Positions 6,001 through 64,000 of a stretch of DNA of 64,000 nt are shown here, piece by piece. The position numbers and the translations under genes were made by a program. The notes beneath the pieces are model-generated. The model was not told the origin of the DNA. It worked only from the letters and a program-made list of their open reading frames with translations, and did no database searches. Positions within the stretch are counted from its first letter, which is position 1. Each line of letters opens with the position of its first letter. The stretch is from Streptomyces sp. PTY087I2 (GTDB lineage: Bacteria > Actinomycetota > Actinomycetes > Streptomycetales > Streptomycetaceae). The stretch is taken from the NCBI RefSeq assembly GCF_001687325.1, contig NZ_LZRD01000006.1:124001-188000 (forward strand), written 5' to 3'.

Positions 6001-9000
6001 ATCGACGGCGACCGCACCATCCCGTACGGCGAACTCCTCGCGGACGTCCGGTCGCTGGCCGCCCGCCTCCGCGAGCACGGAGTGCGGCGCGGCGAACCCG
6101 TCGCGGTCCTTCTGCCCCGGTCGGCGGAGCTGGTCACCGCCGTGCACGCCGTGCTCCAAGCGGGCGGAGCGTATCTGCCGCTGGACCCGGACCACCCGGC
6201 CGCACGCCTCTCCGTGATGCTCGGCGACAACCCGCCCCCCGTGCTCCTCACCGACCGCGCGCGGCTGGATCTGCTGCCCGACGGCTTCGACCGGCCGGTG
6301 GTGCTGCTCGACGACCCGCGCCCGGCGGCCCCCGCCGATTTCGCCCCTGCCGAACCCCACCCCGCGCAGCCCGCGTACATCCTGCACACCTCCGGCTCCA
6401 CCTGCCGCCCCAAGGCCGTCTCCGTCCCCCACGGGGCGCTCGGCAACCGGCTCGCCTGGACACAGCGGCGGTTCCCGCTCGGGCCGGGGGACCGCATGCT
6501 GGCCAAGGCGGCCCCCGGGTTCGACGTCTCGGTCTGGGAGCTGACCGGCCCCCTCCTCGCCGGAGCCACCGTCGTCCTCGCCGGACCGGACGCGCACCGC
6601 GACCCCGCCCAACTCGCCCGGCTGATCAGCGAACACACCGTCCACGCGGTCCATTTCGTGCCGTCGATGCTCACCCTGTTCGCCGCCGAGCCGGAAGCGG
6701 CGCGCTGCACCTCGCTGCGGTGGATCTTCAGCGGCGGCGAAGCCCTCACCGACACCCTCGTACGACGCTGCGCGGAGGTGTTCACGGCCCCCGTCGTCAA
6801 CCAGTACGGGCCGACGGAGGCGGCCGTCGACGTCACCGCCCGTACCGCCGTTCCCGGCGAACAGCCCCTCGCCCCGCTCGGAGCCCCGGGAGCGGGAACC
6901 CGCGCCTACGTCCTGGACGCGGCCCTGCGGCCTGTACCGCCCGGAGTGAGCGGCGAACTGTATCTGGGCGGGCAGCAGTTGGCGCTCGGCTACCTCGGCC
7001 GGACCGCGCAGACCGCCGAACGCTTCGTCGCCGACCCGTTCGGAGCCCCGGGGGAGCGGCTGTACCGTACCGGCGACCTGGCCCGCTGGAACGTGCGCGG
7101 CGAGCTGGAGTATCTGCGCCGCGCCGACGACCAGGTGAAGCTGCGCGGCGTACGGATCGAGCCGGAGGAGGTGCGCAGTGTCCTCCTCGGCCACCCGGAT
7201 GTCCGGGATGCCCTCGTCCTCGTACGCGACGATCTGCGCGGAGCGGCACGGCTGGTCGGGTACGTCACCCCCGAGGGCCCGGCCGCGCCACCCACGCCCG
7301 ACGGTCTGATCGCGCACTGCGCCGGCCTGCTGCCCGGGGCCCTGGTGCCCTCCGACGTCGTCGTCCTGGACCGCTTCCCGCTCACCGTGAGCGGCAAGGT
7401 GGACCGCTCGGCGCTCCCCGCGCCCGCCGTCGCGGACCCGGCCGGGGACGGGGAGCTGCCGGAGGACGCGACCGAGCGGGTCCTCGCCGAACTGATCGCC
7501 GATCTGCTGAAGCTGCCCGCCGTCGGACGGCACGACAGCTTCTTCGGACTCGGTGGCGACAGCATCACCTCCATCGTGCTGGTCAGCGCCGCCCGGCGAC
7601 GCGGACTCGTGATCAGCCCCCGTGACGTCTTCGAACAGCGGACCGTCTCGGCCCTCGCCCGCGTGGCCCGGCGGGAGGAGACCGCGGCCCTGGTGCACGA
7701 CTCGGGGGCCGGGGCCGTGCCGCTCACGCCCGTCATGCACGCGCTGCGCCTTCGTGGCGGCGACCATCGCGCCTACCACCAGTCCCTCCTGGTGACCACG
7801 CCGCCCGGCCTCACCGCCGGGCGGCTGCGCCCGGCGCTCGGCCGGCTCGTCGCGCACCACCCCGTGCTGGCCGCCCGGCTGGACGACGCGTGGACGCTGC
7901 ACGTTCCGGAGGGCCCAGACCTTGCTGACGACGTGCTGAGCGTCGTACGGGCGGGCGCGTCCCTCACCGACACGATCACCGACGCCTCACGGAGCGCCAT
8001 CGGAGAACTCGACCCGCACAGCGGCCGCATGCTGCGCGCCGTCCTCCTCGAACCCGAGGACGGGGAGCCGGGCCGGCTGCTGCTGGTCGCCCATCACCTG
8101 GTGGTCGACGCGGTGTCCTGGCGGATCCTCCTCCCCGACCTCGCCCAGCTGTGTGCCGACCCGGACGCGCCGCTGCCCCCGGTGGAGACCTCCTTCCGCA
8201 CCTGGTCCCGGGCCCTGACCGGAACCGTCGCCGACCGCCGGACCGAACTCCCTTACTGGAGCCGGGTGCTGGGCGAGCCGGGGCCCACCCCGTACGGCCG
8301 GGAACCCGACCCCGCCACCGACACCCCGGACACCGTCCACCGGCTGATCACCACCGTCCCCGCCGACCTGGCCGAACCCGCCCTGAACGAGGTGACCGCC
8401 GCGTTCCACTGCACCGAACAGGACGTCCTGCTCACCGCGTTCGTCCTCGCCCACAGCCGCTGGCGCAGCGACGACAGCACCCTCGTGCTGCTCGAAGGGC
8501 ACGGCCGCGACGGCGCACTCCCCGAAGTCGCCGCCCCCGCAAGGGCGGTGGGCTGGTTCACCAGCCAGTACCCGTTCCGGGGCCGGCTCACGGAGGCCGG
8601 AGCCGACGCCGCCATCGCCGACCCCAACGCGGCCGGACGGCTCCTCAAGCAGATCAAGGAGCAGCTGCGCGCCGTCCCCGACCATGGCATCGGCTACGGC
8701 CAACTGCGGTACCTGGATGCCGCATCCGGGGCCGCCCTCGCCGCCCGCCCCGAACCCCTGACCGGCTTCAACTACCTGGGCCGCTACGACGTCGGCGAGA
8801 CCGACGCCGCCCCCGAACCCTGGACCCCGAGCCCCGAGTCGGCCGCCGTATGGCGCCCGGCCCCCGCGCTCGGCGTCCACACCGCGGTGGACCTCGACAT
8901 CACCGCACTGCGCCGCCCCTCGGGCACCGAGCTCTCCGTCAGCTGGCACCACGCGAGCCGCCTGGTGAGCGACGAGGAGATCGCGGTCCTGGACCGCTGG

Positions 9001-9131
9001 TGGCGCACCGCCCTGGACACCCTGGTGGCGGCCGCCCGCACCCAGGCCGCCGGGCACACCCCGTCCGACCTCGGCCTGCTGTCGCTGAGCCAGGACGAAA
9101 TCGACGAGTTCGAAGACGAGTGGAGGACCAC

Positions 9132-9135
<4 letters not shown>
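1..9135 (+). CDS. Nonribosomal peptide synthetase, 5'-truncated: E-(C-A-T)-(C-A-T-E)
   Basis: Multimodular NRPS open from the first base, so its start lies left of the window. Domains by position: epimerisation about 50-1370 (HHLAVDG, NYLGRF); condensation 1405-2690 (HHLLLDGWS); adenylation 2750-4230; carrier about 4270-4490 (GGHSL); condensation 4545-5870 (HHIAGDEWS); adenylation 5930-7430; carrier 7450-7680 (LGGDSI); epimerisation 7715-9090 (HHLVVDAVSW). Aligning the A domains by eye to PheA gives the ten-residue codes DAHWWGGTFK (close to valine codes) and DVWHFGQVDK (close to serine codes, but G for S and Q for L); the final K is assumed. The second A domain has Cys for the conserved Gly of core A3 (TSGSTCRPK). 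The stop codon overlaps the next NRPS start (GTGA). The iron-uptake genes downstream point to a siderophore. Family certain; substrates are predictions. Confidence 0.97.
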
Positions 9136-24668
<15,533 letters not shown>

Positions 24669-54898: not shown

Positions 54899-55498
54899 TC
54901 TTCATCTGCCTCTAGAAGAACCCCAGCTTCTTCGGCGAATACGACACCAGCAGATTCTTCGTCTGCTAGTGGTACAGCAGTTGTATCCAAGCTGACCAGG
55001 GGAAACAGCAGTTGGTGCGGCTCGCTGGAGGGGTCTGGTCCGGAAATGGTCCGGATCTTGGTCCGTCTCGGCTTGCGCAAGGTGTTGCTGCTGGGCGGGG
55101 CCTCCTCGGACTGGCGCTGTGATCGGCAGTGCGACGAGCTGGATTCCGCCGGGGACCTCCCCCCGTTTGCCGAGCACGGGTCGGCTGGTTCAGATGTCCA
55201 GGCGGCGGCGGGTAGGCCGTTGAGGAAGTCGGTCGCCTTTCGGCCTTCGGCGGTCAATGAGTCGCAGCGGAACCGTCCGGACGCCACGGCGGCGGAAGCA
55301 GGAGCGGCAACCAGGAGCAGGGCGGCGCCCCCCCGGCAGACGACGCAGCACGCCGCCCTGCAGCGGATCTCCTGCCCCGTCGTGCTCGCTGCTGACGCTG
55401 GTAGCGCCTGGTGACTACGTGATTCCGATGAATTTTTGACCAGCACCTGAGTTCAGGCGCTAATGTGCCGACATCACCATAGAGGCAGGGGAACTCAC
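54899..55498 (-). pseudogene. Possible decayed, frameshifted coding region; otherwise no gene
   Basis: A 600-bp gap without a convincing intact gene. On the minus strand one frame reads like a signal peptide and mature start (LLLVAAPASA, then FLNGLPAAAWTSEPADPCSANGG); at a run of six G (near 55160) sense seems to continue in another frame as GEVPGGIQLVALPI, and near 54930-55010 the first frame reads an acidic stretch DEESAGVVFAEEAGVLL. This pattern suggests a small secreted-protein gene broken by indels. Codon use in the last part is unusually A/T-rich for this genome. Evidence is by eye only. The right end must contain the promoter of the following rightward gene. Confidence 0.35.
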
Positions 55499-55954
55499 GT
55501 GAATTTTGACCCGTCACAGCTCTTCGACGACTCGGTCACCTGGCTCCTCCAGGCCCTCAAGGCCGGCACGGGCGAGGGCATCAAGGCTGCTGTAGCGCGG
55601 TGGTTCTCCCGGGGGGACGATGATGCCGAGCAAACCGTCCTCAGTCGCCTGGACCGCACGGCTGACGTGCTTGGCGCTGCTCCCGAAGGTCCGGAAGGCG
55701 AGGGCGTACTCAATAGTCAGCATGAGCGTTGGGTCGGCCGGTTCGAGGATGCCTACAGCGACTGGGACGGCGACCAACAAGCAGCTGCTCTTGAGGAGTT
55801 GAGGTTCCTCCTTGAGGAGCACGCACGGGCCGTCGGCGCGCAGTCGGGCGACGGTGGAGTCTCAGTGGCCGGAAACATGAGTATCAAGGCCGAAGGCGGT
55901 TCCATCGCTGCAGCCATCATCAACGGCGGAGCATGCATCGGCTCCCCTTCCTAG
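55499..55954 (+). CDS. Small hypothetical protein coupled to ATPase/TPR gene
   Basis: A 151-residue protein of unknown function. The N-terminal part is helical (SVTWLLQALKAGTGEGIKAAVARWF), a charged middle contains WVGRFEDAYSDWDGDQQAAALEELRFLLEEHA, and the C-terminus is a glycine- and small-residue-rich stretch (VAGNMSIKAEGGSIAAAII). Tails of this GNxSIKAxGGSIAA kind occur, to my recollection, on small proteins next to large P-loop proteins in actinomycete conflict loci; this is an impression, not a search result. GTG at 55499 is the likely start. Its end overlaps the next gene by 22 bases, so the two are translationally coupled. Confidence 0.78.
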   Translation: MNFDPSQLFDDSVTWLLQALKAGTGEGIKAAVARWFSRGDDDAEQTVLSRLDRTADVLGAAPEGPEGEGVLNSQHERWVGRFEDAYSDWDGDQQAAALEELRFLLEEHARAVGAQSGDGGVSVAGNMSIKAEGGSIAAAIINGGACIGSPS

Positions 55955-58455
55955 CCGACTTCGGCACAGAGCTGAACGAAGCCACGGCCACCTCCAGCCA
56001 GGCGGCAGCATTTCCGGACCTGGCTCAGCTCCCCTCTGATACGCGTTTGATCCTTGCGCAGGATCGTTCAATGGCGGCCGAGAAGGTCGTCATCTACAAC
56101 CTCCCTCCCTCCCACACGTCGGCGCCTCCGCTGCCAGCTGTCAGTAAGTCCTTCGCGTCCTGGGAAGTGGGTGAACTCAGTGTCAAACCATCCGTCGGGG
56201 AGGGGCTACCCCCGTACGTCGAGCGGGCCCACGACCTCGAGTTGCGTCAGTGCCTGAGAAAGATCAGGAACGGCTCCTCCTCAGTCGTCGTGATCGAGGG
56301 AAACTCCTGTGCCGGGAAAACACGCGCAGCCTACGAAGGCGCCGGTACAGAGCTGCACGACTGGGCGCTGCTCTATCCTCACTCAACTGACGGCCTCAGG
56401 CAGGCGGCAGCAGAGGGGCTGGTCAGACCACGAACCATCATTTGGCTCGACGACGCCCACAGCACTGTCCTTGCCGATCGGGACGGCGAGAAGGCCGCCG
56501 CGCTGCTCCTGACGCTCAAAGATGCCGTGAGCCACCTGGCGATCGTCGTCACCATCTGGCCCGGCCACTACGAAATGCTCACCGGCGCCGCCCCTGCCTC
56601 CCAGGGGCAGGACCGCCTTGCTCGGCGCCGGACGCTTCTTCAAGCCAGCCACCACGTCACCGTTCCCGACATCTTCACCGACCGCGAGCTCGATGACTTC
56701 CAACGCCGGGTCACCGACCCGCAGTGGGTGCAGGCGGTAGACAGCGCCCGTGGTACCCAGGAGTTGACCCAGACGCTGGCCGCCGCCGTAGAACTCATGC
56801 ACCGCTACCGCCGCAGCGACCACCCCGGCAAAGCCCTGGTGACCGCAGCAGCTGACCTCCGCCGACTCGGAGTGCGCGAACCCATTCCAGCGCGCACCCT
56901 CACCGCAGCAGCACCCGGCTACCTGACCTCGCACGCACGCATGAAACTCGTCGGAGACTGGGCAGCAACCGCACTCGCCTGGGCACGAGAACCCTGCCAT
57001 GGCGTGTGCCCTGCGCTGCCGCCAGTCCTGCACCCCGACGGCATCGGACCGGACCCGGAGCGATGCGACCTCAATGACTATCTGGAGCAGCACATTGCCG
57101 AGGAGCGTGCCTTCACCGCCCCTCCTTCCCCCTTCTGGCAGGCTGCGCTGACGGCGGATCTCGGCGGTCTCTCCTATGCGAAGTTGGGCACCGCGGCCTT
57201 CTCCAGCGCCCGGTTCAAGATCGCTCGTGATCTTTACATCAAGGCACTTGAGCGTCACCACACACCGGCGTTCAGTGACCTCTGCGTCCTCTATAGCGAG
57301 ACGGGAATGATCCACACGCGGCGCGGAATCGACGAGCTCCTTGCGCTGTGCGAACCGATTGAGGACGGCGGCGAAAGCGCCTTTCATCTGGGCACCGACA
57401 TCGGTTATGTCGCGACGGGGCAGGTGGACGCCGAGTACCGAGAGAGAAGTGTCGAACTCGCGACGGCGCTGCTCGAGCGCGCTGCTGAGGCAGGCCACGC
57501 GCTTGCTAGGACCGCCCTCGTCATGATGTACGAGGATCTCGGCCAGCTGGATGAGGCGGCAGCGGTGGCGCGGGTAGCGGATGCTCCAGAAGCCCAGCAG
57601 GAGCATCCAGCGGCACTCTTGCATCAGGCGGCGGAGGGCGACGCGGACGCGCTGCACGAACTGAAGAGGCTCGCGCACATCGTCGGACCCCGCTGGCATG
57701 CCCTCGTGGCCACGGCCTTCGACGTGCCCTCCCGTCTATGCGCGTGGCCTTCCAAGCTGAGCAAGCAAGGGGAGCGGGACCTGGCCCGGCAGCTCCTGGA
57801 TGCCGGCGTCGCCGCGAAGTCCGCTGCGGCTCTGAGCATGTTGCTCAACTTCCTAGACCGCCCGGAGGATCGGCAGGAGGCAGCGGCCCTCAAACGCTCG
57901 GCAGCAGAAACCGACTCACACTTCTTGTTCCAGCTGTTCATGGAACTGTGGCCCGAGCGTCGACGCGAGGCACTCGCACTGCTCAGCAGAGCACGCCGTC
58001 AGCGCCGGCACGGGGCCGTGTGGACCGTCGTCCGGCATCTACACAAGATCCCCAGTGCACGCCACACCGCTGAAGGCATCGCCCACATTCTGGCCATGAG
58101 AGACCGGCAACCCTGGGCACAGTACGAACTGGCCTTGTGGATGTACGAGCGACTTGAAACACCTGAGGAGGGACTGCCCCCGCTGGAGAGCATTCCCGAC
58201 GAGGTGTTCGCGCTCATGGAAGCTGCAGCGGTTCATCACCAAGGCGCACGCCGCTTGTGGGGACAGTTCCTGAGCCGCATGGGGAGGGAGCACGAAGCCC
58301 GCGAGGCCCTGTTCGCCGCTATCGACAGCGGCGACTACACCATCGTCACCCACGGCGAGCTCGGTGAGCACCTGTTCCCGGACCAGCCGACCAAGGCGGA
58401 GCAGTTGAAGATGTACGGCCTCACCCCTGAGGGAGAGCCACACGACGTCTGGTAG
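55933..58455 (+). CDS. P-loop ATPase with TPR/Sel1-like helical repeats (STAND-like)
   Basis: An 840-residue protein. A P-loop is visible as VVVIEGNSCAGKT (Walker A, residues 123-130) and a Walker B-like TIIWLDDAHS (residues 168-177). After the ATPase part (to about residue 350) the rest is alpha-helical repeats resembling TPR or Sel1 units (ARFKIARDLYIKALERHH, ELATALLERAAEAGHALARTALVMMYEDLGQ). This ATPase-plus-repeat layout is that of STAND/NLR-like sensors, including bacterial antiphage proteins, but no effector domain is recognised; the small upstream protein may supply it. ATG at 55933 overlaps the previous gene; a later in-frame ATG at 56071 is an alternative start. Third positions are less GC-biased than in the first 54 kb. 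Confidence 0.88.
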   Translation: MHRLPFLADFGTELNEATATSSQAAAFPDLAQLPSDTRLILAQDRSMAAEKVVIYNLPPSHTSAPPLPAVSKSFASWEVGELSVKPSVGEGLPPYVERAHDLELRQCLRKIRNGSSSVVVIEGNSCAGKTRAAYEGAGTELHDWALLYPHSTDGLRQAAAEGLVRPRTIIWLDDAHSTVLADRDGEKAAALLLTLKDAVSHLAIVVTIWPGHYEMLTGAAPASQGQDRLARRRTLLQASHHVTVPDIFTDRELDDFQRRVTDPQWVQAVDSARGTQELTQTLAAAVELMHRYRRSDHPGKALVTAAADLRRLGVREPIPARTLTAAAPGYLTSHARMKLVGDWAATALAWAREPCHGVCPALPPVLHPDGIGPDPERCDLNDYLEQHIAEERAFTAPPSPFWQAALTADLGGLSYAKLGTAAFSSARFKIARDLYIKALERHHTPAFSDLCVLYSETGMIHTRRGIDELLALCEPIEDGGESAFHLGTDIGYVATGQVDAEYRERSVELATALLERAAEAGHALARTALVMMYEDLGQLDEAAAVARVADAPEAQQEHPAALLHQAAEGDADALHELKRLAHIVGPRWHALVATAFDVPSRLCAWPSKLSKQGERDLARQLLDAGVAAKSAAALSMLLNFLDRPEDRQEAAALKRSAAETDSHFLFQLFMELWPERRREALALLSRARRQRRHGAVWTVVRHLHKIPSARHTAEGIAHILAMRDRQPWAQYELALWMYERLETPEEGLPPLESIPDEVFALMEAAAVHHQGARRLWGQFLSRMGREHEAREALFAAIDSGDYTIVTHGELGEHLFPDQPTKAEQLKMYGLTPEGEPHDVW

Positions 58456-58589: not shown

Positions 58590-59850
58590 CGGTGGCGGTG
58601 GTTCGCTGGTCGTGGCGGGCTGGACGATCCGGGGTTCGACCATTCGCTGCTCAGTGAGTTTCGGGCCCGCCTGACCGAGGGTGACCGGGCCGATCAGCTA
58701 TTGCAATTGATGCTGGACCGCTTGGTGGAGGCCGGGCTACTCAAGGGGCGAGGGCGACAGCGTACCGACGCCACCCATGTCCTGGCGGCGGTGCGCCGGT
58801 TGAGCCCGGCTGGAGCTGGCGGGCGAGAGCGTGCGGGCGGCGCTGGAGGAGATTGCCGGGGCCGATCCGGACTGGCTGATGCCGCTGATTGAGCCCGAGT
58901 GGGCCAAACGTTACGGCCGGAAAGTCCAGATCGGAAAAGTTCCGGGCGGCAAGGCAGCGGTGCGCGAGTGCGCCGAGGAGTTCGGCCGGGACGGGCAGAA
59001 GCTGCTCGCTGCGGCCTGGGCGGCCGATGCCCCGTCGCGTCTGCGGATGTTGCGGCAGGTGGAGATCCTGCGGCAGGTCTGGATACATCAGTATCACTGC
59101 GATCGCGAGGGGTATCTGCGCTGGCGGGAGGGCACGGCCCTGCCGCCGACCGCGCTGCGGTTCGACTCCCCTTACGACACGGACGCGCACTACTGCGTCA
59201 AACGCGATGTCGAGTGGAGCGGATACCGGGTTCATTTCACCGGGTCGTGTGACCAGGATCTGCCGCACCTGGTGGTGCACGTGGCCACCACCATCGCTCC
59301 CGTCCAGGACGGACAGCCGACTGACAAGATCCACGACGACCTCGCCACCCGCCGGCTGGCTCCGGCCGAGCACATCGTGGACACCGCCTACCTCTCACCC
59401 GCCCACATCGAGCGGGACCAGCGCGTTCACGGCATCACACTGCTCGGCCCGATCCTCGCCGGCAACAGCCGCCAGGCCAAAGCTGGCTCGGGTTTCGACA
59501 AGTCGGCCTTCATCATCGACTGGGACAACGAGCAGGCCACCTGCCCGCGAGGTGCCACGAGTGCGTCCTGGACCAAGCTGCACATCTCCGGCCACACCGA
59601 TTTTCAGGCCCGCTTCGCCGACAGCGACTGCCGGCCCTGCCTGGACCGTGCCCGGTGTACCTCCTCGGCCATTCGCTCCCGCTCTGTCGCGGTGCTCCCG
59701 CGGCTGCTGCACGAGATCCAGATGCGTAATCGGCTCGACCAGCAGACCGAGCAGTGGCAGCGTCGGTACGCCATCCGCGCCGGGGTCGAGGCCACCCTCT
59801 CGCAGAACGTCCGAGCGCACGGCCTACGGGTGTGCGGGGCCCTCCTCGCG
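58590..59850 (+). pseudogene. IS1182-family transposase remnant
   Basis: Degenerate transposase. The readable part begins near 58590 without an N-terminus (GFDHSLLSEFRARLTEGDRADQ), shifts by one base near 58805, then continues as VRAALEEIAGADPDWL, RFDSPYDTDAHYCVKRDVEWSGYRVHFT, HIVDTAYLS, GPILAGNSRQAK and YAIRAGVEATLSQNVRAHGLR, a pattern matching IS1182-type DDE transposases, including the DTAY and GVEATLSQ regions. Homology stops abruptly near 59840, where a C-terminal segment of about 40 residues should follow. With both ends missing and a frameshift, it cannot be active alone. No terminal inverted repeats were recognised. It lies between two candidate defence genes. Confidence 0.85.
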
Positions 59851-59882
59851 ACCCGGCCTCCTCGTCACCGGCCAGAAGGGCC

Positions 59883-62324
59883 TCAGAAGAGTCGTTGTGC
59901 AAGGTCGGCAACTGCGGGTCCGTCAGCGGTGGCGAGCAGCGCTCGGAGATCTGCACAGGCGTCGCTATGCCTGGCGGAATCCATGCCTGTTTTTCGCAGA
60001 GCTTTAGCCCAGTTGAGATCGTGGCCGGTGTGGGGTGTGAGCACTGCCAGGCCGGTTTCGCCCTCGACTCGGGTGGTGAGGGCACCTTGCAGAGCGGGCC
60101 AACGGGCGGTGATCTCGGCGAGGGTGATGAGGTGCATGGCGTCTTCGACAGAGAGGGCTTGCGTGGTGCCGTCTTTGTAGGCGAGGACGCGGAGGTAGAA
60201 CTGCCACACGGTCAGAAGCCTCTTGGCTTCCCGAATGGAGAGGTGGCGCTGAGCGCTCAGTCTGTCCTGCAGGCGGTCACGTATGACTGGGTGTGTTTCC
60301 AGGGCGAGTACTTGGGTTTCAAGCTCGGACTGGGGTGCTGCTGCCTCTGCTGGTATCAGGTTCACTGCTGGGGGGTCGACTACTGCGGCTGAATGTGCAG
60401 TTGGTGCGGGGGATGCGGTGTGGAGTTCGGGCGTTTGAGCGACAGGGCCCAGCAGGCTGCTTGTGGCGGCTACGAGGCTGTGGGGGGCGATGGGGGGCAG
60501 GGTGACGGGGAGTTGGATGAGTTTCCGCAGATAGGTCCATCCCCAGGATGGGTCTTGGTGGCCTGCCCGTCCTTGCGTTGAGGCGAGATCGGAGTAGGCG
60601 CTGTCAAGGTGTGCTGCGACGACGGCGGAGTCCAGTCCGACAACGAAGCGGCATGGCACCGCGTTCGGCTCGACGCGTCGATGCGGGGAGTGGAGTGCTC
60701 CGGACAGGAAGAGGTTGATAGCCTCGAAAACTTCGGCGGTTGCGCGTGCCGAGCAGCGATCTAGATCGTCGATGAACACAATGAGTTCGCGACCGCTGGA
60801 CCAGATTGTTTCCAGGAGGTCGCTGATGTCGTGCTGGACGAGATAGAGGTAGCCGGACCGGGCGTTGTAGTAGGGGTCGCGCAGCGCGTTGTCTGATCCG
60901 GATGTCGAGGCGGCAAAGGCACCGCTGAGCACAGGGCCATCGAGGATCTCTCCTGGCAGGAAGGAGTGTGCCCGGCCCAGAAGGAATCGAAGGGCCGTGT
61001 GTAGTACTCCTAGGGACAGTAGAAGCAGGGGAAGGCCGATGGCCAGGAGCGCGGCGTTCACGTTGTGTCCCGACCACCTGTAGTGCGTATCTGCTTTGGC
61101 CAGTTGCGCCACGACTGGGACGATCAAGGCAAAAACGCCTACCCGCAGTAGCGGCGAGAGAAGCCGCCGACTAACGGTGCGGCGCAGGTGATGGCGGTCG
61201 AGTCGTTCTGCGTTACGGCGTAGCCAGTACGCCTCGCGGTCGCGACCTGCGGTGCCTTGCGCTGAGCGTGAGGCTTGCACGATGTCGCGAGAGAGCCCGG
61301 CCCAGATCTGGTCGCTGGTTTGATACGCCCAGGGGTTGAAGCGAACCGTTACCACCGTGCGAGAGGCCGGCGGAGGGGAGGGCGTGCCGTGCAGCAGAGG
61401 CCACCTGCTGTGCTTGCTATTGGCGCCCGCCCGGCTTTGGCTGAGCAGGAACCTGATAGTCGAGCGCACAGGCAGGTTGCGGCGGCGCAGCCGTCGAAAC
61501 CACTTGTTTACCTCATCCTTCCAGTGCTGCCAGCGGCCGACGGAGGCCGGAAGCACGTCCTGCTGGCGGGCAATGACCTCCTTCTCAATAAGTTGCATAA
61601 GCGTAGATTTGCCTGACCCCCACGGCCCCTCGATCGCTACGACCGAGGGGCCGGTACCGTCCTCCGCAACCAGTTCACCCGTCGGCGAGGAGCCTTCCTC
61701 GGCCGGCATGAGCAGGTCGGCCACCGCTGACACCAGGGCCATGCGATCGAGCAGGTCGCTGCCGGCCGGCCGATCGGCAAATCCTCTGAAGTGCACGGTG
61801 CCGTTGTGTAGGTCCGATCCATAAGACGAGTCCCCTAGCGCGGCCTCCCGCTCCAGTTGCTCGCGTTCGAAGCTGGCCAGAAGATCGGCGGAGGGGTCGA
61901 GCAGGGCCGAGCGCAGGACATTGGGGTGTGCGTCAAGCTGCTGATCTAGCCAGCTCGCGCCCAACCAGTCGCCGAGGAACGGGAAGCTCCCGCGCAGTCC
62001 GTGAAACCACTGCAGATCACGTAGCGTGGGGTCCACGGCGCACACCAAGTGCCACTTGTCCGGAGGGTTCCTGGCCGCCACCCTTTCCAGCGTTTGGCGG
62101 ACCTGGCGACGGCGGCTGGTGGTCATGGTCCCAGCAAAGGCTTTGATCTCATAGGCCACACGCTCGCCGGTCTCAGTCTCCGCCACCACGTCGATGCCGA
62201 CGTCGGAACGTCCGGCATCGTCCGAAGGTACGCGTGCGCGAGGGTCCACTTGCAGCAACAGCTTGGTGACCAAGGCGTGAAACTGCTGGTAGTTGGCTGT
62301 AAGGCGGTCCCATGGGTAGCTCAC
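59883..62324 (-). CDS. KAP-family P-loop NTPase with N-terminal PD-(D/E)xK nuclease-like domain
   Basis: An 813-residue protein. Residues 1-150 look like a restriction-endonuclease fold: GID (Asp45), then VAYEIKAF with Glu59 and Lys61, followed by WHLVCAVDPT. The NTPase has Walker A GPWGSGKST (residues 233-241), the KAP motif VRFNPWAYQ (about 327-335), two transmembrane segments (about 390-412 and 421-449) inserted between Walker A and B, and Walker B LIVFIDDLDRC (514-524), then CRFVVGLDSAVVAAHL. KAP NTPases include the phage-exclusion protein PifA; the membrane hairpin would hold the nuclease at the inner membrane. GTG at 62324 has no obvious ribosome site. It is divergent from a gene with a similar nuclease domain, suggesting a joint defence role. 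Confidence 0.9.
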   Translation of the reverse strand: MSYPWDRLTANYQQFHALVTKLLLQVDPRARVPSDDAGRSDVGIDVVAETETGERVAYEIKAFAGTMTTSRRRQVRQTLERVAARNPPDKWHLVCAVDPTLRDLQWFHGLRGSFPFLGDWLGASWLDQQLDAHPNVLRSALLDPSADLLASFEREQLEREAALGDSSYGSDLHNGTVHFRGFADRPAGSDLLDRMALVSAVADLLMPAEEGSSPTGELVAEDGTGPSVVAIEGPWGSGKSTLMQLIEKEVIARQQDVLPASVGRWQHWKDEVNKWFRRLRRRNLPVRSTIRFLLSQSRAGANSKHSRWPLLHGTPSPPPASRTVVTVRFNPWAYQTSDQIWAGLSRDIVQASRSAQGTAGRDREAYWLRRNAERLDRHHLRRTVSRRLLSPLLRVGVFALIVPVVAQLAKADTHYRWSGHNVNAALLAIGLPLLLLSLGVLHTALRFLLGRAHSFLPGEILDGPVLSGAFAASTSGSDNALRDPYYNARSGYLYLVQHDISDLLETIWSSGRELIVFIDDLDRCSARATAEVFEAINLFLSGALHSPHRRVEPNAVPCRFVVGLDSAVVAAHLDSAYSDLASTQGRAGHQDPSWGWTYLRKLIQLPVTLPPIAPHSLVAATSSLLGPVAQTPELHTASPAPTAHSAAVVDPPAVNLIPAEAAAPQSELETQVLALETHPVIRDRLQDRLSAQRHLSIREAKRLLTVWQFYLRVLAYKDGTTQALSVEDAMHLITLAEITARWPALQGALTTRVEGETGLAVLTPHTGHDLNWAKALRKTGMDSARHSDACADLRALLATADGPAVADLAQRLF

Positions 62325-62599
62325 CGGTCAACGATACGATCATGCCAAAACCCTCGCGCTGCTTTGCCTCGAATTCCCTTTCAGCATTAGCCAGCCGTCG
62401 TCTTCCACACGCCCGAGGCCCATGGCAGGGTGCGCGACTACGCGGAGCGCTACCAGGCGGCTGCTGCGTCCTCCGGGCCACGTCGTGTCGACCGTCGCCG
62501 TGGCAACCACCATCGCCTGGGCGGTCGGCGGCCCTGCATTGTCAGTGCCCCGCGAGATGATGGAACCGGAAACACTCGTGCATAGGGCAAAGGCAGGGA
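62325..62599. other. Divergent intergenic region between two nuclease-domain genes
   Basis: 275 bp that should hold promoters for the leftward KAP gene and the rightward nuclease-like gene. No operator was recognised. One forward frame (about 62393-62475) reads VFHTPEAHGRVRDYAERYQAA, which looks like the end of a lost gene, so the spacer may contain leftover coding sequence. Confidence 0.5.
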
Positions 62600-64000
62600 A
62601 TGCTGATGTTGGTGCCGTGGACCACGTTGGAGCCGCTGCAGACGGAGAACGTAGTCGCCGTCATGCTGTGCCGTGAGCACCCTCGGGCCGTCCGGATCCG
62701 CCCCTCGCAGGGCGACGGCGGCATTGACGTTGTCGAAGTCACCGAAGACGGCTGGGTGGTCTACCAGATCAAGTACTTCGCGACCAACCTCGATGCGAGC
62801 CAGAAGAATCAGGTCGCCGACTCCTACAACAAGGTGCAGGCATACGCGGCCTCCCAGGGTGCCCGCATCGCGGCCTGGCACCTAGTTGTCCCGCTGGATG
62901 CCACCAAAGAGAACCGCTTTGCCTGGTTCCGTACGCTCACCCAGGGCTCCGACTTCCCCTGCGAGTGGATGGGACTGGCCCAACTCAACGGCCTGGCGGC
63001 CAAGTATCAGGACGTCATCGACTACTTCCTCGGCAATGGCCTGGAGCGGGTACTGACGCTGCAGCAGCAACTGTTTGACCTGATGGGCCTCCAGAAGAGC
63101 ACCGATCGGGCTCTTGACGAGGGCAGGCCGGCTCTTCTCCAGGCTGCCGACGCCATCGGCGGCCTGGAGGGCCTCTACCAGGCCCTCAACGCGCACGATC
63201 CGTTCTACCGGTACAGCTTCTCGGTCGACCAGGACCGTACGATGCCGCAAGGGGAACCGATGCTCGTCTTTGCCAGCCAGACCCAGGACGGCGACGGGCC
63301 CTGCATCACCTTTCGCGTCTTCGCCCGCTATGAACAGGCTGTGCGGGACCATGAGTTGGGTATCAAGTGGGCGGTGTCCTTCTCCGAAGACAGGCCCGTA
63401 ACCCAGGCATTCCACGAGGCACTTACCTACGGCACCCCGGTGACCGTGTCGTCCACCGAAACCGCATCCTTCAACTGCACCCTGGACCTTCCTGGCGGCC
63501 TGGGCGGCCAGTTCTCCGAAGGCACCGCCAGACTCGGGCCGGCCTGGCAGGACGAGGCACCCAGTCGCAAGATGCGGCTGCAGCTTCTGGATGAAGCTGG
63601 CCAGGTCCTGGAGAGCCTGATCTTCGAGATGGAACCGACCCGCAGAGGGCTGTCCGGGAAAGGGCTGTCAGCATTCGGCCGGGACGCCTCTGGCGTGCTG
63701 GAGGTGCAGACCCTCACGGTCCTGGAGGGCAAGCGGCAGACGACGATGCGGTTCAGCCGCAACCCCCTTGAAGGGCTTCCTCCTGACGAAGTCCTCCCGG
63801 TTGTGCGCTTCATGGCGAGGCTCCACACAGCGCACAGTATTTGCGCTGCTGCACCCTACGGCCCCGTCCACAACAAGCCGATGCCGTTCCAGGGCGACCC
63901 GGACAGTGACATGCACGTGATGGCCGCGCGCGCTGCGGCCGTAGCACAGGCCCTGTCGGTCGTACAGGAATACACAACAGAACAGCTGGTGATGCCCGAC
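62600..64000 (+). CDS. PD-(D/E)xK nuclease-domain protein, 3'-truncated by the window
   Basis: Open from ATG 62600 to the right edge (467 codons, no stop), so the C-terminus is missing; an in-frame stop at 62558 bounds the start, and a second ATG at 62606 has better ribosome-site spacing (GGGA). The N-terminus looks like a restriction-endonuclease fold: SQGDGGID (Asp43), then VYQIKYF with Gln56 and Lys58, then WHLVVPLDAT. This follows the same order and spacing as the N-terminus of the divergent KAP protein. The remaining roughly 350 residues (for example DPFYRYSFSVDQDRTMPQG and a beta-rich middle) match no domain I recognise. Function is probably DNA cleavage in defence; this is inference from motif and context. 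Confidence 0.85.
   Translation, partial: MLMLVPWTTLEPLQTENVVAVMLCREHPRAVRIRPSQGDGGIDVVEVTEDGWVVYQIKYFATNLDASQKNQVADSYNKVQAYAASQGARIAAWHLVVPLDATKENRFAWFRTLTQGSDFPCEWMGLAQLNGLAAKYQDVIDYFLGNGLERVLTLQQQLFDLMGLQKSTDRALDEGRPALLQAADAIGGLEGLYQALNAHDPFYRYSFSVDQDRTMPQGEPMLVFASQTQDGDGPCITFRVFARYEQAVRDHELGIKWAVSFSEDRPVTQAFHEALTYGTPVTVSSTETASFNCTLDLPGGLGGQFSEGTARLGPAWQDEAPSRKMRLQLLDEAGQVLESLIFEMEPTRRGLSGKGLSAFGRDASGVLEVQTLTVLEGKRQTTMRFSRNPLEGLPPDEVLPVVRFMARLHTAHSICAAAPYGPVHNKPMPFQGDPDSDMHVMAARAAAVAQALSVVQEYTTEQLVMPD

Follow-up and report, generated by a model that had tools for sequence, protein, structure and literature searches.

PifA, a KAP NTPase, reportedly excludes phage T7. QatA of the QatABCD system is likewise a KAP NTPase; according to PMC13279940 it binds DNA and seems to assemble as heptamers or octamers. 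Avs4, an AVAST protein (PDB 8dgf), carries an N-terminal nuclease on a STAND NTPase, and excerpts of PMC8195603 and PMC10907252 describe KAP ATPases replacing STAND, as well as restriction endonuclease (REase), TIR and trypsin effectors, in related conflict systems. Here we examine two divergent genes at the right-hand end of a 64,000-nucleotide stretch of Streptomyces sp. PTY087I2 (contig NZ_LZRD01000006.1, positions 124,001 to 188,000; hereafter the window), which comes from an assembly of 8.16 Mb in 83 contigs. One gene encodes a predicted nuclease fused to a KAP NTPase (the KAP protein), and the other, which we call the second gene, encodes a related N-terminal domain followed by a beta-rich module. 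We propose that these are two independent, likely single-gene defence effectors that share a predicted nuclease family and were probably joined by recombination in an island, a reading to which we give a probability of roughly 0.6. The features concerned, in window coordinates, with lengths in amino acids (aa), are the following.

59883–62324, minus strand: nuclease–KAP NTPase fusion gene, an open reading frame (ORF) of 813 aa with a KAP_NTPase match and full-length relatives.
61902–62324, minus strand: nuclease-like domain at the N-terminus of the KAP protein, residues 1–141, with D45, E59 and K61.
60420–61793, minus strand: KAP P-loop NTPase region, residues 178–635, with Walker A at 233–240 and Walker B at 517–522.
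61005–61163, minus strand: two hydrophobic, predicted membrane segments within the KAP domain, residues 388–406 and 422–440.
62600–64366, plus strand: second, divergent gene, 588 aa, with its stop codon beyond the window; nuclease-like domain and C-terminal module of unknown fold.
62600–63034, plus strand: PD-(D/E)xK-like domain at the N-terminus of the second protein, residues 1–145, with D43, Q56 and K58.
63035–64000, plus strand, remainder past the window end: beta-rich C-terminal module of the second protein, residues 146–588.

Both genes are present with open reading frames and with lengths close to those of their nearest relatives, and the KAP protein ends in RLF, as does its relative P0078. 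They diverge from an intergenic stretch of 275 bases. For the second gene, the ATG at 62606 appears a likelier start than the codon at 62600, because a GGCAGGGA stretch precedes it and because the codon corresponding to 62600 is TTG in the relative from Streptomyces sp. CB01635.

The KAP protein matched the Pfam KAP_NTPase family at 76.8 bits (cut-off 20) with both Walker A and Walker B present, and its two membrane segments, with a hydropathy of 2.21 each, are helical in the structure model. These data support the membrane-inserted KAP NTPase called by an earlier reading of this DNA made from its letters alone (the sequence-only reading). The KAP region matched RdrA, ORC/Cdc6 and other AAA+ ATPases, and a sequence search of solved structures returned one P-loop fragment. 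PADLOC profiles linked the protein to QatA (1.3e-13) and to PifA (1.6e-11, in two stretches, the best of which covers only the P-loop residues 222–255; the other is not shown). However, it scored 59.6 bits against an NCBIfam QatA cut-off of 600, and neither QatB, QatC nor QatD was found among the seven island proteins scanned. Profile matches to Avs proteins did not span the NTPase and the C-terminal sensor, the extent that marks a member of that group; they were weak and N-terminal, with E 0.011 to Avs2 for the KAP protein (best stretch residues 14–96) and 0.031 and 0.079 for the second protein. The predicted fold of the second protein does match the Avs4 nuclease, whereas the KAP protein has a KAP domain and two predicted membrane segments where Avs4 has STAND. 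A profile match to LmuA, the nuclease effector of Lamassu, did not reach into the C-terminal part, and the same seven island proteins included no LmuB (SMC). The excerpts of PMC8195603 and PMC10907252 name neither a nuclease–KAP fusion nor a family of nuclease plus beta-rich module; more widely, the fusion was not found in the literature searched (titles and abstract openings) nor in the accessible parts of PMC7159879, PMC8195603, PMC10853773, PMC13279940 and PMC10907252.

The evidence that the two proteins share a domain comes from their N-termini. These are 36% identical in pairwise BLASTP (E 8e-12), and their profiles aligned in hhalign with a probability of 99.2 and an E-value of 7.4e-20, against 0.036 for a control pairing of the KAP nuclease with the C-terminal part of the second protein. 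The motifs follow at near-equal spacing, with GIDV at residues 43–46, EIK at 59–61 and WHLV at 91–94 in the KAP protein, and GGIDV at 40–44, QIK at 56–58 and WHLV at 93–96 in the second protein, so that the common arrangement seen in the sequence-only reading held. Judged from these alignments, the likeness is far beyond chance and the two N-termini are homologous.

Both N-termini keep the D...(E/Q)xK motif. In the alignment of second-gene proteins (64 of the 71 relatives found, plus three loci; P0001, P0028, P0031, P0032, P0062, P0064 and P0071 were left out), D43 and K58 are kept in all 68 rows, as is Q or E at position 56. When 14 KAP nucleases, 10 stand-alone relatives and the second protein were compared, the D and the E or Q were present in 25 of 25 rows, and 24 of these had the K. 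The alignments exclude the broken stand-alone copies of L044 and L048. Pfam gave a weak Mrr_cat_2 match at residues 35–67 of the KAP protein (17.1 bits, below the cut-off of 22) and, for the version of the second protein truncated by the window, Mrr_cat at E 0.22, below cut-off. The structure model of the second protein (predicted local distance difference test, pLDDT, 86) shows a predicted PD-(D/E)xK fold core whose nearest match is the Avs4 nuclease. We conclude that both N-termini belong to one domain family, predicted from the motif and, for the second protein, from the model to be a PD-(D/E)xK nuclease, in line with the character first assigned to them. That these domains are nucleases in fold only, acting in DNA binding or assembly, would be favoured by the QxK in place of ExK in 65 of the 68 second-gene rows and by the R that replaces the motif lysine in P0075. 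Yet D43 and K58 are invariant in those 68 rows, and Mrr-type nucleases use QxK. We give this alternative little credence.

The full-length second protein matched neither Pfam families (E of 1 or lower) nor NCBIfam families (0.1 or lower), in keeping with the long region without recognizable domain noted in the sequence-only reading; a sequence search of solved structures gave one chance-level row (E 0.35). The secondary structure of the model is beta-rich here, and hhalign detected no internal repeat (E 0.043 to 0.63). VIA-align gave only two rows in this part, both of low Z, 9bgv_A (4.6, residues 146–301) and 3wem_A (4.2, residues 484–581). Searches with the whole-protein model, including Foldseek tables that carry no ranges, thus point to no known fold for the module, although it may have one. 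Stand-alone proteins of 528–557 aa have a C-terminal part homologous to the module (hhalign E 5e-42), and the nuclease was present in all 13 proteins found through the module. The family thus appears to consist of the nuclease followed by one beta-rich module, with a stand-alone branch that carries a distant version of it. A search of phages with the second protein as the only query gave no match. P0135 has a CRP-like cyclic-nucleotide-binding and helix-turn-helix part in front of the nuclease and a beta-rich-like C-terminal part.

The sequence-only reading had further proposed that the two genes form a two-component antiphage system, with the membrane NTPase as sensor and sister nucleases at work in both proteins; their divergence from a 275-base stretch and the single nuclease family at both N-termini would suit such a system. 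Among 392 Streptomyces genomes, the nuclease–KAP fusion occurred in two, the window's own (G000) and G049, and second-gene relatives at 80% or above also in two, G000 and G161. Both genes were therefore together in one genome of the 392, the window's own, and each was alone in one other. The sole match to the second gene in G049 is the N-terminus of the KAP protein itself, and the sole match to the KAP protein in G161 is the N-terminus of the second gene product itself; hence neither assembly shows a partner. The 83% second-gene relative in CB01635 has no KAP match within 10 kb in either direction, and no second-gene relative lay within 7 kb of the G049 fusion. When 394 genomes were drawn from across the family, some of them already among the 392, no further nuclease–KAP fusion came up. 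N-terminal hits in G382, G257 and G213, in G488, G526 and G624, and in others were recorded without their gene context. The side-by-side recurrence that went with the two-component proposal was thus not borne out.

The phylogeny also separates the two domains. In a midpoint-rooted tree of 54 rows (14 nuclease–KAP, being the window protein and 13 of 16 fusions, with P0072, P0080 and P0107 omitted; 22 second-gene nucleases; 18 stand-alone relatives), the 22 second-gene nucleases split from the rest with support of 100/99, and the 14 KAP nucleases grouped with four stand-alone rows, L038–L041, also at 100/99. Since they fall on separate branches, the neighbouring nucleases are cousins rather than the sister nucleases they had been taken for. 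The tree likewise led us to reject the idea that one of the two genes gained its nuclease from the other by local duplication, with the midpoint root and a long branch for P0070, flagged by the tool, to be borne in mind. For a system built from both genes, such separate branches are a further difficulty.

The stretch between the genes indicates how they may have come together. In CB01635, the second gene is preceded by a same-strand gene of 390 aa without a Pfam match (L035, positions 8725–9897). Comparison by blastn aligned window positions 62395–64000 with L035 9809–11401 at 84%; from 62395 to the second-gene stop the two are alignable at 84–85%, and nowhere else within 58000–71000. The left end of this homology lies 71 bases from the KAP start and falls in the final ~30 codons of the 390-aa gene, so that the window retains the following stump:

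62395–62485 (right end approximate), plus strand: remnant of the 390-aa gene, its last ~30 codons, located by blastn to L035.

The KAP gene occupies the place that the remainder of the 390-aa gene has in CB01635. This pattern suggests that the intergenic stretch is a recombinant junction and that recombination probably placed the two genes side by side. As the junction truncates the gene that lies upstream of the second gene in the relative, the arrangement looks secondary, which argues against the two-component system. A shared intergenic operator was also considered and rejected: the stretch contains no inverted repeat, only one imperfect 15-base direct repeat, and most of it is homologous to the DNA upstream of the CB01635 second gene.

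Both genes lie in a region of lower guanine-plus-cytosine (GC) content, 0.625–0.705 per kb over about 53–71 kb, compared with 0.746–0.776 in the 3 kb to the left and 0.732–0.782 at 72–76 kb, past which it drops again. In the relative G006, only ~260 bases separate the flanking genes, against 23 kb in the window; of the seven relatives read, G006 alone has adjoining flanks, and the other six show one flank in the stretch fetched. No transfer RNA was found in stretches L005 or L006. Taken together, base composition and gene order show that both genes sit in an inserted, lower-GC island, which looks like a defence island.

Several observations weigh against our reading of two independent effectors. 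The two genes are probably still together in a near-identical strain, because P0001 and P0072, which differ from the window proteins at 6/588 and 9/813 residues, both lie on 21,758-base contigs. Streptomyces nigra also has relatives of both genes, P0005 (82%) and P0078 (77%), on contigs of differing size, where the two may or may not adjoin. The runs on 392 genomes scored two to three candidates per genome, and a weak extra copy could be missed; runs on 199 genomes scoring five to six candidates gave the same answer. Confidence in the KAP model is moderate (pLDDT 72), and Foldseek gave it only weak matches of nuclease type, the best being EcoO109I (E 0.012, probability 1.00, matched range not shown). 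Finally, QatA, our model for ring assembly, is dispensable against some phages, according to PMC13279940. The near-identical strain and S. nigra speak for a two-component system; set against the separate occurrence, the separate branches and the junction, they leave it a poor candidate in our view. The antiphage claim of the sequence-only reading therefore divides: a defence role is likely, judging from the island setting and the likeness to QatA, PifA and Avs4, while the two-component part lacks support, given the separate occurrence of the genes.

As independent effectors, the two proteins would each guard on their own against invading DNA. For the KAP ATPase, a predicted membrane protein, QatA and RdrA serve as models: like them it would form a ring, which would work as sensor and switch. 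Upon infection the ring would gather the N-terminal nucleases, and DNA cutting would be switched on near the membrane, at the site of phage DNA entry or as a suicidal last resort. In the second protein, the beta-rich module may sense an invader, or may restrain or aim the nuclease and release it upon incoming DNA.

The relatives of the KAP protein point to an exchangeable effector. Full-length fusions at 99–48% comprise P0072–P0079 and P0081–P0086, and altogether 16 of the 66 proteins found join the nuclease to KAP (38 of the 66 entered the KAP alignment). Precomputed domains place Trypsin_2 at the N-terminus of four others and TIR at that of two, and many relatives have WD40 repeats. Scans confirmed the trypsin domain in P0089 and the TIR domain in P0100, each with an extra P-loop domain between effector and KAP. 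Ahead of their nuclease, P0084 and P0086 have ~90 additional residues that look much like a helix-turn-helix; Pfam gave no match to them in P0084, the one scanned. We suggest that the N-terminal position in this family is an exchangeable effector slot, occupied by a nuclease, a trypsin-like protease or TIR. Elsewhere in the source genome KAP NTPase was matched once more, in L003 (G000, C12, 12048–12275), where the open frame spans 1303 aa.

The relatives of the second protein raised the possibility of a role in DNA transfer. A relaxase or coupling-protein gene lay no more than two genes away in five of 11 plasmid records of second-gene relatives, whose gene tables are incomplete (L089, L091, L092, L095 and L098, all actinobacterial), against a rough chance expectation of 1.0 (P about 0.002, for ten positions per record and reckoned after the fact); the other six had none within that distance, one of them with one side cut by the record start. 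In the stand-alone group nearest the KAP nuclease, the same helicase gene lies 200–250 bases upstream in four of six full-length relatives at 50% or above (G195, G138, G068 and G384, but not G011 or plasmid pSGE). Copies that are short or broken, of which there are three (L044, L048 and L100), lack it. In the single-contig genomes G068 and G384 the helicase stands at the contig end and reads inward; G068 has an identical inverted terminal repeat, each copy of which carries it. PMC8743542 describes the telomeric TtrA as a putative DEAD-box helicase needed for SLP2 conjugation; we call our helicase TtrA-like by family, place and direction as given there, and not by comparison with a named TtrA. 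Stand-alone nuclease and beta-rich genes downstream of the helicase were seen at L119, L041, L120, L039 and L040.

These settings would fit proteins that serve DNA transfer instead of phage defence: nucleases carried by mobile elements and active in conjugation, where rival plasmids of the recipient cell could be one target. The second gene of the window would then be a stray copy. However, the window copy and the other chromosomal copies read were not seen beside relaxase genes (their neighbours mostly unscanned with profiles), the helicase is missing in G011, in plasmid pSGE and beside L044, L048 and L100, and plasmids carry phage defence as well; we consider a transfer role rather unlikely. 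A broader idea, and one we hold quite doubtful, is that of an unnamed family of guard nucleases linked to transfer through relaxases and coupling proteins on actinobacterial plasmids and through the TtrA-like helicase at the ends of Streptomyces chromosomes, which would destroy incoming competitor DNA. The KAP fusion would then be the same nuclease placed under a membrane ATPase ring, a conjugation guard turned phage sensor.

Other genes of the island were also inspected. To the right of the window end, a 143-aa EACC1 protein is followed by a 1291-aa fusion of an EACC1-type caspase to an SF1 helicase (L006, 4037–8350); the fusion matched NCBIfam caspase_w_EACC1 at 168 bits (cut-off 140) and PADLOC MkoC at 3.6e-57, with the best stretch in the helicase part. 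This pair fits two-gene conflict system 4 as given in PMC7159879. An unknown 494-aa protein (L006, 2497–3981), also right of the window end, had no Pfam, PADLOC or NCBIfam match, and G002 (L109) has a 35% relative of it within 6 kb of the same flank. Overlapping ORFs of 163 and 840 aa occupy window positions 55463–58455; for the longer, nSTAND3 was matched weakly and below its cut-off (E 0.024), and its product is perhaps another defence NTPase. One further feature borders the KAP gene:

58831–60180, plus strand: transposase-like ORF, probably a remnant, with DDE_Tnp_1_6 at 4.7e-14 over residues 237–335 of 449.

This ORF and the 3' end of the KAP gene overlap, but the DDE_Tnp_1_6 match stops near 59835, before the KAP stop, and the ORF is no part of the system.

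Our results add a predicted nuclease to the effectors of one actinobacterial KAP ATPase family, beside its trypsin-like and TIR versions, and a family with such varied effectors lends itself to testing how they would be switched on by KAP ATPases. They also bring out a family of predicted nucleases, with a module of unknown fold at the C-terminus, which recurs by conjugation genes and at chromosome ends. Lastly, they suggest that a neat divergent pair with a common domain can arise by the shuffling of an island, here with what appears to be the scar still legible between the genes.

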